The notes below the pieces were generated by a model. The model searched no databases. It saw only the letters and a list, made by a program, of their open reading frames with translations, and was not told the DNA's origin. A program made the position numbers and the translations under genes. Shown in pieces: positions 19,540 through 23,416 of a stretch of 33,578 nucleotides of DNA (positions are counted from its first letter, which is position 1; each line of letters starts with the position of its first letter). This DNA comes from Caldilineaceae bacterium (GTDB lineage: Bacteria; Chloroflexota; Anaerolineae; Caldilineales; Caldilineaceae): NCBI GenBank assembly GCA_020433455.1, contig JAGRCP010000014.1, positions 1-33,578 on the forward strand, given 5' to 3'.

Positions 19540-19971
19540 TCAGACGTCCGCTTCTCCAGACGACAGCGTAATCAGGTCGCCTTCGATGCGAGCCGGGTCA
19601 TCGGTGATCAGAAGGGCGAAATCTTCGGGCGTCAAGGAGAGAAGGGGAAAGGCAGCCTGGTAGAGTTCGTCGGCGACAATGGCGGCCAGCGCAAAGAAGC
19701 TGTCCACGCCCGTAGTGAGGATGGCAGCGGGCGCCGTGCCTGCCGCCACGGCTTCCAACAGCACGGCGGTGGTGGTGGAAGAGCCCCGGGTATGGGGCAG
19801 GGCCAAAATCCGGCCCGCAGCGACTTGCCCGGCTAAAGGATGGCGCTGATCGATAATCGTGCCGGTTCGGTAGTCATAACCGCCCCAAAAGGAAAGGGGC
19901 TCCCGGCTCACCAGCAGCCTTCCCCTGGCCTGGCCGGGAATGACGACCTGCGCCCGAATCACCCGGCCCAT
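19540..19971 (-). CDS. Aconitase X small (swivel) subunit, DUF126
   Basis: About 143 residues, the swivel domain of a two-subunit aconitase X. The block LLVSREPLSFWGGYDYRTGTI followed by IDQRHPLAG and ILALPHTRGSSTTTAVLLEA is diagnostic of DUF126 and contains the catalytic/substrate-binding Ser-rich loop. With the large subunit it forms a [Fe-S] dehydratase: in bacteria cis-3-hydroxy-L-proline dehydratase, in archaea phosphomevalonate dehydratase; sequence alone does not choose. The ATG at 19971 overlaps the end of the large-subunit gene by 13 nt, pointing to translational coupling; an upstream start at 20019 is less likely. Confidence 0.9.
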   Translation of the reverse strand: MGRVIRAQVVIPGQARGRLLVSREPLSFWGGYDYRTGTIIDQRHPLAGQVAAGRILALPHTRGSSTTTAVLLEAVAAGTAPAAILTTGVDSFFALAAIVADELYQAAFPLLSLTPEDFALLITDDPARIEGDLITLSSGEADV

Positions 19972-21224
19972 AGCGTCTCGTCCCGGACCACGACGCCCGC
20001 AACAGCCGAATTGACGCAATCTTCCAGACTGCCGAAAGTGACGTCGGTTTCCAACATGCCGGGCGAATAGTAGGCGTACTTGGCTGAGTTGGTCATAATA
20101 CGCTTGATGGCAGGCGGCAGCATAGGCGTGGTGAGGATACAGGTGTCCACCGTCAATTCGCCGCCAAAGGCGCGTAAGGCGTCCAGGTGGCCGGCGCGCT
20201 GGGCCAGCATGGACATCATGCGGCTGGTCGTGACCAGGAAGCGCACATCCGAATGACGAGTGCGCCCGGCCAGCAGCGGCGCAAGGGCCGCAAACTCGGC
20301 CAGGGAAAAGTGGGGACTGCCCAGCACGACCATATCCAGGGCCGCTCCCGCACGGGTGGTCAATTCCCGGCGCGCTTGCCGAAGATGCGGGAGCGTGATC
20401 TCCATCACCTGCGCGGGAGCCTGATGTTGGAGGGCCTCATCCAGCGTGGCGGCTTCAGGCGTGATGCCCGCGATATGGAAGAGGGCCACTGCGCCCGATG
20501 ATGCGCCGCCCGCGGCCAGGGCCTTGAGCTGATCTTCGGTAGGCCCCACGCAAAAGCCGTCGAGAACCGGTACCCGCTCACCCGCCAGCTTGCCCATAAG
20601 GTGGCCCAAAACGGGATAGAAGCTGTCATGGGCCTGGAGAGCCGGGGGAATGTCCGCAAGGCGCAGCAGGAGAGTAGCCCGGCGATTCTCTGTAAGATGC
20701 AGCCCGGCCGCAGGCGCACGCCCGGTGATGGCGCAGCAAATATCCAATAGATCGGGGTATCGTTCCGTGCGCGCGCCGATGACGGAATTGGCGAAAGCAA
20801 TGGCGTTGGACTCGCCCCAGGCGATCTGTTGACCGAAGCGGGGCCTCCACTCGGTTTGGTAAGGCGCACAGGTCCAGGTGGGCGTGCAGCCCATAGACTG
20901 GTAGGCGACCATCTGCCGATGGGCTTTCTCCGCCCACGCCCGAGGAACGGCCCACTCGTGCCAGTGACTTTCATCCACGCCGCTTACGTTGAGGGTGGTA
21001 GGGACGCGCACCTGCGCGCCCAGCTCGGCCAGGCGCTCGGCGTACTCCAGCCCGGCGTCGCCGATGTAGAGGCTGCTGTCGATGTGCGCGCCGCTAATGT
21101 CCAACAATTCGGTTGCGCCGTAGACGGACGCCATGCGCGCCAGGATCGTCATGGCCATACGCGGGGCCGGCCCGGCCCGGCCGTCTAACATGCGCTGGTC
21201 CTGAGAAGAGAGGTGCAAGGTCAT
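19959..21224 (-). CDS. Aconitase X large (catalytic) subunit, DUF521
   Basis: About 421 residues, the catalytic subunit of aconitase X. It shows MTLHLSSQDQRMLDG at the start, DISGAHIDSSLYIGDAGLEYAE, MGCTPTWTCAPYQTEWRPRFGQ, AWGESNAIAFANSVIGARTERYPD, FCVGPTEDQ and TVDTCILTTPM: the Cys residues in the second, fifth and sixth blocks are the likely Fe-S ligands or active-site residues. It dehydrates a small hydroxy acid, either cis-3-hydroxyproline (catabolism) or 5-phosphomevalonate (isoprenoid synthesis). No proline-catabolic or mevalonate genes lie nearby to decide. The TTG at 21281 is rejected in favour of ATG 21224. Confidence 0.92.
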   Translation of the reverse strand: MTLHLSSQDQRMLDGRAGPAPRMAMTILARMASVYGATELLDISGAHIDSSLYIGDAGLEYAERLAELGAQVRVPTTLNVSGVDESHWHEWAVPRAWAEKAHRQMVAYQSMGCTPTWTCAPYQTEWRPRFGQQIAWGESNAIAFANSVIGARTERYPDLLDICCAITGRAPAAGLHLTENRRATLLLRLADIPPALQAHDSFYPVLGHLMGKLAGERVPVLDGFCVGPTEDQLKALAAGGASSGAVALFHIAGITPEAATLDEALQHQAPAQVMEITLPHLRQARRELTTRAGAALDMVVLGSPHFSLAEFAALAPLLAGRTRHSDVRFLVTTSRMMSMLAQRAGHLDALRAFGGELTVDTCILTTPMLPPAIKRIMTNSAKYAYYSPGMLETDVTFGSLEDCVNSAVAGVVVRDETLWAG

Positions 21225-21283
21225 GGGGAGGCAAAGATTTGAAAAATGATTGAATTGCTGATTCGATCGCTTTGACTGCAAAT

Positions 21284-21312
21284 ATCATGGCACAAGAGAG
21301 ACGGGTATGCAA
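21284..21312 (-). promoter_or_regulatory. Promoter of the aconitase X operon
   Basis: On the minus strand TTGCAT (21312-21307), 17 nt, then CATGAT (21289-21284). The start would be near 21277, giving a leader of about 53 nt. Confidence 0.5.
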
Positions 21313-21339
21313 CCAACCATACGCCAGATCTGCCCAATC

Positions 21340-21374
21340 AAAAAACGCTGCCCCAGCCAAGGGCGGCGTTTTTC
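21340..21374 (-). terminator. Terminator of twin unit 1
   Basis: AACGCCGCCC pairs with GGGGCAGCGTT, followed by a T-run on the minus strand. It also has five T on the plus strand, so it may act in both directions. Confidence 0.8.
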
Positions 21375-21406
21375 ATCGTGGAGCAGGGTTTGCATCCGCA
21401 GCGGAA

Positions 21407-21634
21407 TTAGCCGACATGGCCGCCTCCATAGCTGCGGCGTTGGGGCGCAACCTGGACCTTCATACGATGGCCAATCCGTTCTAAAAGCGTCCCCGTGCGA
21501 TAGAGCAGGGTCGTTTCCGGATCCCGGGGATATGCAACGGCTCCCTCAGGACGATTGCGTAAAATGCGCTTTATTTCTTCTTCACGCGCCTTCAACGCAG
21601 TATCAGTTTCAAATTGGTAAAGCATAGAAAACAT
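21407..21634 (-). CDS. Small protein of twin unit 1, unknown
   Basis: A 75-residue protein. It shares with the protein at 21946-22167 the blocks REEEI (helical, charged N-terminal half), TLLYR-G-LLE-IGHRMKVQV and the C-terminus APQRRSYG-G followed by G. About half of the residues agree over the aligned part, so the two are paralogues from a tandem duplication. AGAGG lies 6 nt before the ATG. No membrane segment or signal peptide is present; the first ~35 residues should form an amphipathic helix and the end is basic and Gly-rich. It has its own promoter, structured leader and terminator. No known family was recognised. Confidence 0.8.
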   Translation of the reverse strand: MFSMLYQFETDTALKAREEEIKRILRNRPEGAVAYPRDPETTLLYRTGTLLERIGHRMKVQVAPQRRSYGGGHVG

Positions 21635-21770
21635 AAGTAACCTCTCATTGCTAAATTAGCTTGCGCCGCACGCTCCTCTGTGCAGCAACAGCCTGACAAA
21701 AAAGAACGCCCGTAGACCCATGTCTACAGACGTATTTTGAGCTGCGCACGGGGAATCCGTCACGCAGCCA
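21635..21770 (-). ncRNA. Structured leader RNA of twin unit 1
   Basis: Between the promoter and the small ORF is a structured leader. The first hairpin (21769-21741) pairs GCTGCG with CGCAGC plus an inner ACGG/CCGT. After TCAAAAT comes a 12-bp fully paired hairpin (21733-21704) with a 5-nt loop, followed by TTCTTTTTT: an intrinsic-terminator shape ahead of the gene. The same arrangement with compensating changes is found at 22168-22290. It could be a riboswitch or attenuator, or a short sRNA of about 75 nt with occasional read-through. Confidence 0.65.
21698..21733 (-). terminator. Attenuator-like terminator in leader 1
   Basis: A 12-bp stem starting ACGTCTGTAGAC with its complement GTCTACGGGCGT (including GU pairs), followed on the minus strand by a run of T, 64 nt before the start codon. 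Confidence 0.7.
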
Positions 21771-21776
21771 AACGAA

Positions 21777-21805
21777 AGTATACGCCGACAAACAAAAAGA
21801 GGCAA
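21777..21805 (-). promoter_or_regulatory. Promoter of twin unit 1
   Basis: TTGCCT (21805-21800), 17 nt, TATACT (21782-21777) on the minus strand. The -10 and the following TTTC are identical to those of unit 2. Confidence 0.75.
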
Positions 21806-21879
21806 GACCAAAGTTGTACGATTAAGCTACGTTTTTTCTTGTGCAGAATCGACAACTTTCGGACGCATCGCGCTGCATC

Positions 21880-21912
21880 AAAAAAACGCCGCCCCCGGGC
21901 AGAGGCGGCGTT
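21880..21912 (-). terminator. Terminator of twin unit 2
   Basis: A 9-bp stem AACGCCGCC / GGCGGCGTT with a 9-10-nt loop and a 7-T tail on the minus strand; the same GCCGCC stem is used by unit 1. Confidence 0.85.
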
Positions 21913-21945
21913 CATCTTGGAGAAGGGTCATCGTTCATGATGCAG

Positions 21946-22167
21946 TCAGCCGGCGCTGCCGCGCCCATAGCTGCGGCGCTGGGGTGCGACGACCTGGACC
22001 TTCATGCGATGGCCGATGCCTTCCAGAAGATTGCCTACCCGGTAAAGCAGGGTTTCTTCGGGATGCTCCTGACGCAGAATCGCATCAGCCAGGCGTTCCT
22101 GCTGGATACGGGCGATTTCCTCTTCGCGCATCTGCTTCACAACATCCATACTGTATTGGTTCCACAT
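21946..22167 (-). CDS. Small protein of twin unit 2, unknown
   Basis: A 73-residue paralogue of the protein at 21407-21634. The N-terminal half (MWNQYSMDVVKQMREEEIAR and onward) is a charged helix. The second half ETLLYRVGNLLEGIGHRMKV followed by QVVAPQRRSYGRG is the conserved part, which suggests function lies there, perhaps in nucleic-acid or membrane-surface contact given the Arg-rich tail; that is speculation. GAGGTG lies 6 nt before the ATG and the context AATGAG-GGT-ACTTATG is shared with unit 1. It has its own promoter, leader and terminator. Confidence 0.8.
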   Translation of the reverse strand: MWNQYSMDVVKQMREEEIARIQQERLADAILRQEHPEETLLYRVGNLLEGIGHRMKVQVVAPQRRSYGRGSAG

Positions 22168-22290
22168 AAGTCACCTCATTGTGTAGTGCGGCTGCGATAT
22201 GTACGCAGCAAAAAACAAAAAACAAACGCCCGCAGACGAAAGGTCTACAGACGCATTTTGGGCTGCGTACGGGAAAGCCATACGCAACTA
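22168..22290 (-). ncRNA. Structured leader RNA of twin unit 2
   Basis: Homologous to leader 1. Hairpin one (22288-22262) is an 11-bp stem GTTGCGTATGG / CCGTACGCAGC with loop CTTTC. The linker CCCAAAAT is near identical to that of copy 1. Hairpin two (22254-22226) is 12 bp with an ATT-like linker and loop CTTTC, then TTGTTTTTTG. Where the two copies differ inside stems, pairing is kept (A-U or U-A replaced by GU, G-U by A-U), supporting selection on RNA structure. Confidence 0.65.
22217..22254 (-). terminator. Attenuator-like terminator in leader 2
   Basis: The 12-bp stem GCGTCTGTAGAC / GTCTGCGGGCGT with T-rich tail on the minus strand, the counterpart of 21698-21733. Confidence 0.65.
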
Positions 22291-22296
22291 AATGAA

Positions 22297-22325
22297 AGTA
22301 TAACGCAATGCGTTAAAAAAATCAA
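22297..22325 (-). promoter_or_regulatory. Promoter of twin unit 2
   Basis: TTGATT (22325-22320), 17 nt, TATACT (22302-22297) on the minus strand, in the same place relative to the leader as in unit 1. Confidence 0.75.
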
Positions 22326-22371
22326 GTCCAAAAGCCTACGATTTGGCTTTTCTCTTTCACCATCTCCCGGG

Positions 22372-22377
22372 TATACT
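22372..22377 (+). promoter_or_regulatory. -10 element of the RNase/inhibitor operon
   Basis: TATACT on the plus strand, 51 nt before the RNase start, with a weak TTTTCT -35 18 nt upstream. It diverges from the unit 2 promoter. Confidence 0.45.
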
Positions 22378-22427
22378 GGTCCGGCACTGGATGACCCGGA
22401 ATTCAGCATCACACGAAAGAATCGACT

Positions 22428-22979
22428 ATGACAGCCAACTCATCAGGAGGCGGCAACAAAAAGCTGACCAGCGGCGGCCTTATCGCCATCATTATTGCCG
22501 TGGTGGTTGCCCTGGCCGGCGGCGGCAACTTTTTTGACACCCTGAATCAGGTCAACGAAGCCATAACGCCGGCCACAGTTACCGTCATTGCGGCGGAGAT
22601 GACCCACACCGCGGCCGACGGGCCTGCCGCGACCGCGACCGTCGCAACGGCCACGCGCGCGGCAGCCGCGCCCCAGGCGACGCCACGCGTCTCCCGCAGC
22701 GGATTGCCGCTCATCCCCTACGCTGAGTTGCCGCCCGAGGCCCAGGACACGCTGGCGCTCATCAAAAGCGACGGGCCCTTCCCCTTTGACCGGGACGGCC
22801 TGACCTTCCAAAATCGGGAGGGCATTCTGCCCGGCAAGCGCGCCGGCTACTATCAGGAGTACACGGTTATTACGCCCGGATCTTCGGACCGGGGAGCGCG
22901 GCGCATCGTCACCGGGGCGGAGGGCGAAATCTACTACACCGACGATCACTATGACAGCTTTCGCGAGGTGAGCTTCTGA
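22428..22979 (+). CDS. Membrane-anchored barnase-like ribonuclease
   Basis: A 183-residue protein: a hydrophobic segment GGLIAIIIAVVVALAGGG (~16-33) as signal or anchor, an Ala/Thr-rich linker (~45-88), then a microbial RNase domain of the barnase (RNase N1/T1) family. By comparison with barnase, FQNREGILPGK carries the guanine-binding Arg/Glu (130, 131), YYQEYTV the general base (Glu144), RRIV the phosphate-binding Arg (158-159) and TDDHYDSF the general acid (His174). It should cleave RNA after guanine, outside the cytoplasmic membrane. The next gene is a barstar-like inhibitor with a TGATG overlap, which protects the producer cell. Confidence 0.9.
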   Translation: MTANSSGGGNKKLTSGGLIAIIIAVVVALAGGGNFFDTLNQVNEAITPATVTVIAAEMTHTAADGPAATATVATATRAAAAPQATPRVSRSGLPLIPYAELPPEAQDTLALIKSDGPFPFDRDGLTFQNREGILPGKRAGYYQEYTVITPGSSDRGARRIVTGAEGEIYYTDDHYDSFREVSF

Positions 22980-23416
22980 TGTGGCAACTGGAGAAATTAC
23001 TCAGCGGCGATCCTGCGCCCGGCATTTATCGCTATGCTGGCAAGGAGCATCCGGCCGATCTACGCGAGGACCTGGCGATCTTCGGCTGGGAACTCTTCTA
23101 TCTCGACGGGCGGAGCGTACGTGACAAACAGTCATTTTTGCAGGCCGCGGGCGCGGCCATGGATCTCCCGGCCTACACCGGCAAAAACTGGGATGCGTTT
23201 GAGGAAGTAATCCGCGATCTGGATACAGAATATACGGAGGGCTATGTGCTGCTCTTTGAGTACCCGAGTAATTTTGCCGCCGACGCGCCCGAAGATTGGG
23301 CGACGGCCAAGTCCATCCTGCAGGACGCCTGCCGCTTTTGGACCGGGGAGGGCCGGCCGTTCTACGTCCTGCTGCGGCGGGTGGATAGAGGGATGAGGGA
23401 GATCCCCATGCTGTAA
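22979..23416 (+). CDS. Barstar-like ribonuclease inhibitor
   Basis: A 145-residue protein, longer than classical barstar (about 90), with the barstar core LFYLDGRSVRDKQSFLQAAG, then YTGKNWDAFEEVIRDL and YVLLFEY. Barstar blocks barnase by inserting the helix after NxDA into the active site; here Asp72 matches barstar Asp35, while the key Asp39 position appears to be Glu76. The extra N-terminal ~35 residues are of unknown role. No signal peptide, so it stays in the cytosol. Its ATG shares bases with the RNase stop (TGATG), a coupled pair as in other barnase/barstar loci. Confidence 0.9.
   Translation: MWQLEKLLSGDPAPGIYRYAGKEHPADLREDLAIFGWELFYLDGRSVRDKQSFLQAAGAAMDLPAYTGKNWDAFEEVIRDLDTEYTEGYVLLFEYPSNFAADAPEDWATAKSILQDACRFWTGEGRPFYVLLRRVDRGMREIPML

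Follow-up and report, generated by a model that had tools for sequence, protein, structure and literature searches.

Two small proteins of 73 and 75 residues are encoded side by side on the minus strand of contig JAGRCP010000014.1 from a Caldilineaceae bacterium (Chloroflexota; assembly GCA_020433455.1), within the stretch of 33,578 nucleotides that we analyzed and call the window. What are these proteins, and why is each preceded by a long, folded leader? The best overall explanation, to which we assign a probability of about 0.5, is that they derive from a duplicated stand-alone gene for a small adaptor protein, each copy lying behind an attenuator-like leader.

Two Complete Transcription Units in Tandem

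Units A (about 22340-21880) and B (about 21820-21340) are neighboring, complete transcription units of the minus strand, each running from its promoter through a folded leader, a strong ribosome site and a small open reading frame (ORF) to a terminator; all the elements that the initial annotation had named are thus found at these positions. Promoter scanning identified TTGATT-17-TATACT for A (22297..22325, minus strand) and TTGCCT-17-TATACT for B (21777..21805, minus strand), exactly two sigma-70-like promoters in region 21300-22420 versus 0.8 expected in shuffles, together with seven terminator-like sites versus 1.6 expected. The spacer of promoter A contains a perfect 15-nt palindrome flagged as an inverted repeat, TAACGCATTGCGTTA (22301..22315, no strand assigned), which looks operator-like and is absent from the spacer of promoter B. 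The ATG lies 129 nt from the end of the -10 box in A and 142 nt from it in B. The ribosome sites are GAGGTGA in A (22177-22171) and GAGAGG in B (21646-21641); the start context that had been written as AATGAG-GGT-ACTTATG is only an approximation of the actual sequences, AATGAGGTGACTTATG in A and AATGAGAGGTTACTTATG in B. Terminator hairpins of the GCCGCC type close both units, with a 13 bp stem and T-run in A (21884..21913, minus strand) and a GC-rich stem and T-run in B (about 21340..21370, minus strand).

Alignment of the two units shows that their DNA similarity starts upstream of the -35 box and continues as far as the final terminator, and consequently their duplication cannot be attributed to chance: they are old tandem copies of a stand-alone gene. 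A DNA query with the units returned this single locus from their own genome, and direct searches of genome contigs, phages and viral contigs did not retrieve close relatives.

Regarding the neighboring genes, an Aconitase X (AcnX) gene lies downstream of unit B (window 19959-21281, minus strand). On the other side, window 22428-23416 of the plus strand carries, divergent from unit A, a gene for a barnase-type ribonuclease with an N-terminal hydrophobic stretch (PF00545, E 6e-25), directly followed by a barstar gene (PF01337, E 3e-24). The nuclease has relatives in 20 of 46 Caldilineaceae genomes, own genome included, and none of 20 other barnase-type loci has small units within 1.5 kb upstream; a linkage of A and B to the barnase-type gene was rejected on this basis.

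Sequence Constraint and Predicted Structure of the Proteins

Protein A (73 aa, MWNQYSMDVVKQMREEEIARIQQERLADAILRQEHPEETLLYRVGNLLEGIGHRMKVQVVAPQRRSYGRGSAG; 21946..22167, minus strand) and its paralogue B (75 aa; 21407..21634, minus strand) share 58% identity over 73 residues. Neither ends in APQRRSYG as previously described, for five residues come after (RGSAG and GGHVG). Codon substitutions, which the initial annotation had named as one test of its reading, give an overall dS of 1.56, dN of 0.37 and dN/dS of 0.23 by Nei-Gojobori counts, a pattern indicating that both ORFs are under purifying selection. The constraint is uneven: the C-terminal half shows dN 0.14, dS 1.20 and dN/dS 0.12, whereas the N-terminal half has dN 0.68 and an amino acid identity of 34%, from which it follows that constraint falls on the C-terminal helix while the N-terminal half has diverged. 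The earlier suggestion of an old duplication of which both copies are kept is supported.

Two AlphaFold runs predicted two helices each (residues 2-34 and 40-50 in one, 2-32 and 36-54 in the other) and an unstructured tail, with low confidence (mean pLDDT 67 and 60). Helix 2 is weakly amphipathic, since shuffled sequences reach its moment in 153 of 2000 cases for A and in 70 of 2000 for B (family median 17%); given these counts, a strongly amphipathic helix 2 is unconvincing.

An Unnamed Protein Family in Chloroflexota

The Pfam, NCBIfam and PHROGs models do not match A or B, so the statement that they belong to no known family holds for curated libraries; it does not hold for the phylum, in which iterated profiles recover abundant relatives. 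The family rests on this iteration because matches of the first class-wide profile search turned out, on inspection, to be frames open by chance, in many cases antisense to another gene. A hidden Markov model (HMM) of A and B alone, applied at relaxed E values within the same taxonomic family, reached two relatives encoded by intergenic small ORFs, L034 (74 aa, RLLYRVGELLENAGGQLK) and L044 (60 aa, RLLSTIGALLILVGQRLK), the addition of which brought in new members at E 6.9e-7 and 3.9e-5. A nine-row profile then matched 37 of 298 genomes of the class (E <= 0.01), and a 36-row profile matched 41 of 46 Caldilineaceae genomes (E <= 0.05), a count that includes some of its training members and is circular for A and B, which seed it. 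Across the phylum, the latter profile matched at least 53 of 400 genomes at E <= 1e-4, mostly outside the class; this search scored only 14 candidates per genome, and wherever the number scored is small the count is a minimum. The initial annotation had proposed an HMM search in Chloroflexota genomes, and homologues were indeed found beyond the locus, in other genomes and classes.

Since R, L, A and E are abundant in the members, we ran a reversed-profile control on the same 46 genomes, which matched eight of them at E <= 0.05 with a best E of 0.011. The profile match of the family of the window proteins, covering helix 1 and the RxGxLLxxxGxRLK helix, beats this control, and genus g9, which contributed nothing to the training, has 13 genomes matched at 1.7e-4 or better. 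On the strength of these profiles, A and B very probably belong to an unnamed, divergent family of small proteins in Chloroflexota, the boundary of which hinges on iterated profiles of sequences that are short and helical.

Members have a median length of 76.5 aa and a recurrent anatomy: a charged N-terminal helix with (Y/H)xE(R/L)LREAExxRL, a variable linker and the motif RxGxLLIxxGxRLK/Q (also RxGxLLxxxGxRLK). A Shine-Dalgarno sequence of at least 4 nt precedes 69 of 72 matches examined, although the choice of start partly used it. Three diverged pairs of other members have dN/dS values of 0.24, 0.37 and 0.23; four near-identical orthologues range from 0.23 to 1.23 with a handful of changes each, and are uninformative. 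When 36 members were scanned against Pfam and NCBIfam, only isolated, unrelated weak matches appeared. Besides A and B, a profile search found no further family members in their own genome.

Genomic Context and a Possible Relation to Envelope Stress

Members of the family occur as stand-alone genes, as tandem pairs or in first position ahead of DUF2089, Toastrack-like or MFS genes. In four Caldilineaceae genera (g3, g7, g9 and g11) a DUF2089 gene (zinc ribbon plus HTH) follows a member, the two often overlapping by 4 nt; elsewhere the genes that follow members code for MFS transporters, an ArsR-type regulator or a methyltransferase. Five further genomes contain tandemly paired small members (L174-L178), seemingly with one promoter per pair, unlike A and B; the pairs of L175-L178 form two-gene operons whose promoters carry TGTGTG/ACACA repeats.

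A promoter score of at least 8 was obtained for 39 of 81 upstream regions. In stand-alone or paired members such as L088, L161, L175, L177 and L178, too, a hairpin occupies the predicted start, while the leaders of most members in DUF2089 operons are short (43-60 nt). The 5' hairpins of other stand-alone members are unrelated in sequence to the leaders of A and B, and the median fold z is only -0.7 over all 39 leaders, as delimited by predicted start sites; a 5' hairpin is thus a feature of some members and not of the family. The orthologous leaders of L088, L161 and L213 have a common hairpin upstream of the ribosome site, in which, as judged by eye, L088 and L161 differ in both bases of one pair. 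Another palindrome, GCAACCGGTTGC, which we take to resemble an operator of the LacI family, is found at or near the promoters of L088, L161, L152 and L213, in two other genera.

These contexts raise the alternative that A and B are components of an envelope-stress response, acting at the inner membrane face with DUF2089/Toastrack (PSP-like) partners while helix 2 binds the membrane or a membrane protein. The first-gene position in four genera speaks for it, as do the Toastrack-like products encoded downstream in some cases, even if these were recognized by eye and the one scanned (L118) has no Pfam match. SHOCT-like bi-helical domains are a further comparison, but their conserved motif differs from that of the A/B family, and neither the SHOCT-like nor the DUF2089 C-terminal Pfam models match A, B or the 36 members scanned. 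In the portions of a published survey drawn on here, such domains resemble our family in being short, two-helical and located near Toastrack and DUF2089 genes, the association of DUF2089 with Toastrack is tied to a PSP-like response, and a small first gene of the A/B kind receives no mention alongside them (PMC11237479). The window pair departs from these operons, however, since A and B stand alone, with neither such a neighbor nor another member in their genome, and the weak amphipathicity of helix 2 also argues against membrane binding. We therefore regard an envelope-stress role of A and B as unlikely.

Structure of the Leaders

Each leader folds into three hairpins. In A, hairpin 1 (11 bp; 22262..22288) lies near the predicted transcription start, hairpin 2 (12 bp; 22226..22254) is followed by TTGTTTTTTG, and hairpin 3 spans 22191..22209 (6 bp); the equivalents in B are hairpin 1 (21741..21768), hairpin 2 (21706..21733; 12 bp, with TCTTTTTTG after it) and hairpin 3 (21661..21688), all on the minus strand. 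Both leaders fold better than all their shuffles (z of -4.65 for A and -3.80 for B), and their mean column identity is 86%. In hairpins 1 and 2, 45 of 45 cells are paired across both copies and all five stem substitutions preserve pairing, but these changes are one-sided G-U exchanges and constitute weak covariation. The terminator scan found hairpin 2, a feature absent from the initial annotation, to resemble an intrinsic terminator between the predicted start site and the ORF in A as well as in B.

A covariance model of the leader retrieved only ordinary terminators across 61 genomes, a result that agrees with the terminator reading of hairpin 2; Rfam gave no family match at or near gathering score. 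Hence, the previously proposed conserved leader is structured and common to both copies, but it is not a conserved RNA beyond this locus. We give roughly even odds to partial termination at hairpin 2. The presence of this terminator-like hairpin makes a sensor-regulated small protein plausible; the units might conceivably represent a new RNA-protein module. Minimum-energy and centroid folds differ in that the 5' arm of hairpin 3 of leader A, GCTGCGTAC, can alternatively pair with the 3' arm of hairpin 1. This alternative, the 9-bp version of which is absent in B, leaves hairpin 2 intact, and therefore no classical antiterminator is visible in leader A. The leaders resemble intrinsic-terminator attenuators in that each copy has a hairpin with a T-run between its promoter and its ORF, and differ from them in that no antiterminator, sensor or Rfam leader match was found.

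The same features could be read differently, with the RNA as the main product: hairpins 1 and 2 and the U-run would delimit a small RNA that terminates after about 75 nt, with the protein arising from read-through. The maintenance of the hairpins in both copies, the terminator-like nature of hairpin 2 and a leader better conserved than the N-terminal coding half fit this possibility. It is nevertheless quite unlikely, given that purifying selection acts on the ORFs and that their products are part of a protein family spread across the phylum, while relatives yield only ordinary terminators with the leader model and Rfam offers no match.

Leader A also contains an open frame of 36 codons (window 22171-22281, minus strand), which starts at an ATG close to the 5' end and closes with a TGA that overlaps the main ORF's ribosome site. 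Translation of such a frame could in principle be sensed and set the terminator, as in the control demonstrated for a DUF1127 gene of Sinorhizobium meliloti (PMC12218461). We consider this very unlikely here, for copy B has GTG at that position, a one-base loop difference shifts the frame at hairpin 2, and no ribosome site precedes the frame in A; as the frame breaks in B, a conserved upstream ORF was rejected. Finally, although no copy of the units was found at the equivalent place in relatives, the notion that A and B are decaying or non-functional duplicates is extremely improbable in view of their dN/dS and of the promoters, ribosome sites and terminators that are intact in both.

A Possible Mode of Action

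According to the adaptor reading, each copy would be transcribed from its own promoter, and the transcript would begin at or near hairpin 1, a stem-loop that may protect the 5' end. About 75 nt into the transcript, hairpin 2 and its U-run would probably halt part of the transcripts, such that the protein would be made mainly upon read-through of the attenuator or under strong promoter activity. The product would be a small, non-catalytic protein consisting of helix, linker, helix and basic tail, most likely an adaptor whose helices bind a regulatory or envelope protein in a manner similar to DUF1127; we hold this role only tentatively, by analogy. Both copies have probably been retained because their control diverged (the palindrome being in promoter A only), as did their N-terminal halves, and they may respond to different triggers.

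The DUF1127/YjiS proteins of Proteobacteria offer the best working comparison. They too are short, arginine-rich and often encoded by several genes per genome, they are reported to act through protein binding as adaptors (PMC12501420), and the S. meliloti gene mentioned above is controlled by a leader attenuator. However, the present family differs in its length of about 76 aa, its two helices and its phylum, and the DUF1127 model of Pfam/NCBIfam does not match A, B or the 36 members scanned; the likeness is therefore one of working, not of membership.

Significance for Chloroflexota

The family is present in about nine of ten sampled Caldilineaceae genomes and in other classes, yet it lacks a Pfam or NCBIfam model and consequently annotation has no name for it. 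Its recurrent first-gene position before DUF2089 provides a lead into envelope-stress control in a phylum for which few tools exist, and two natural attenuator-like leaders are available in the window pair. More speculatively, and with a low likelihood in our estimate, the family could constitute a phylum-wide class of small adaptors through which envelope-stress (DUF2089/Toastrack) and other regulons deliver a switchable output, leader attenuators being what releases stand-alone copies, A and B among them. If so, proteins of 75 residues would be the effectors of a PSP-like response.
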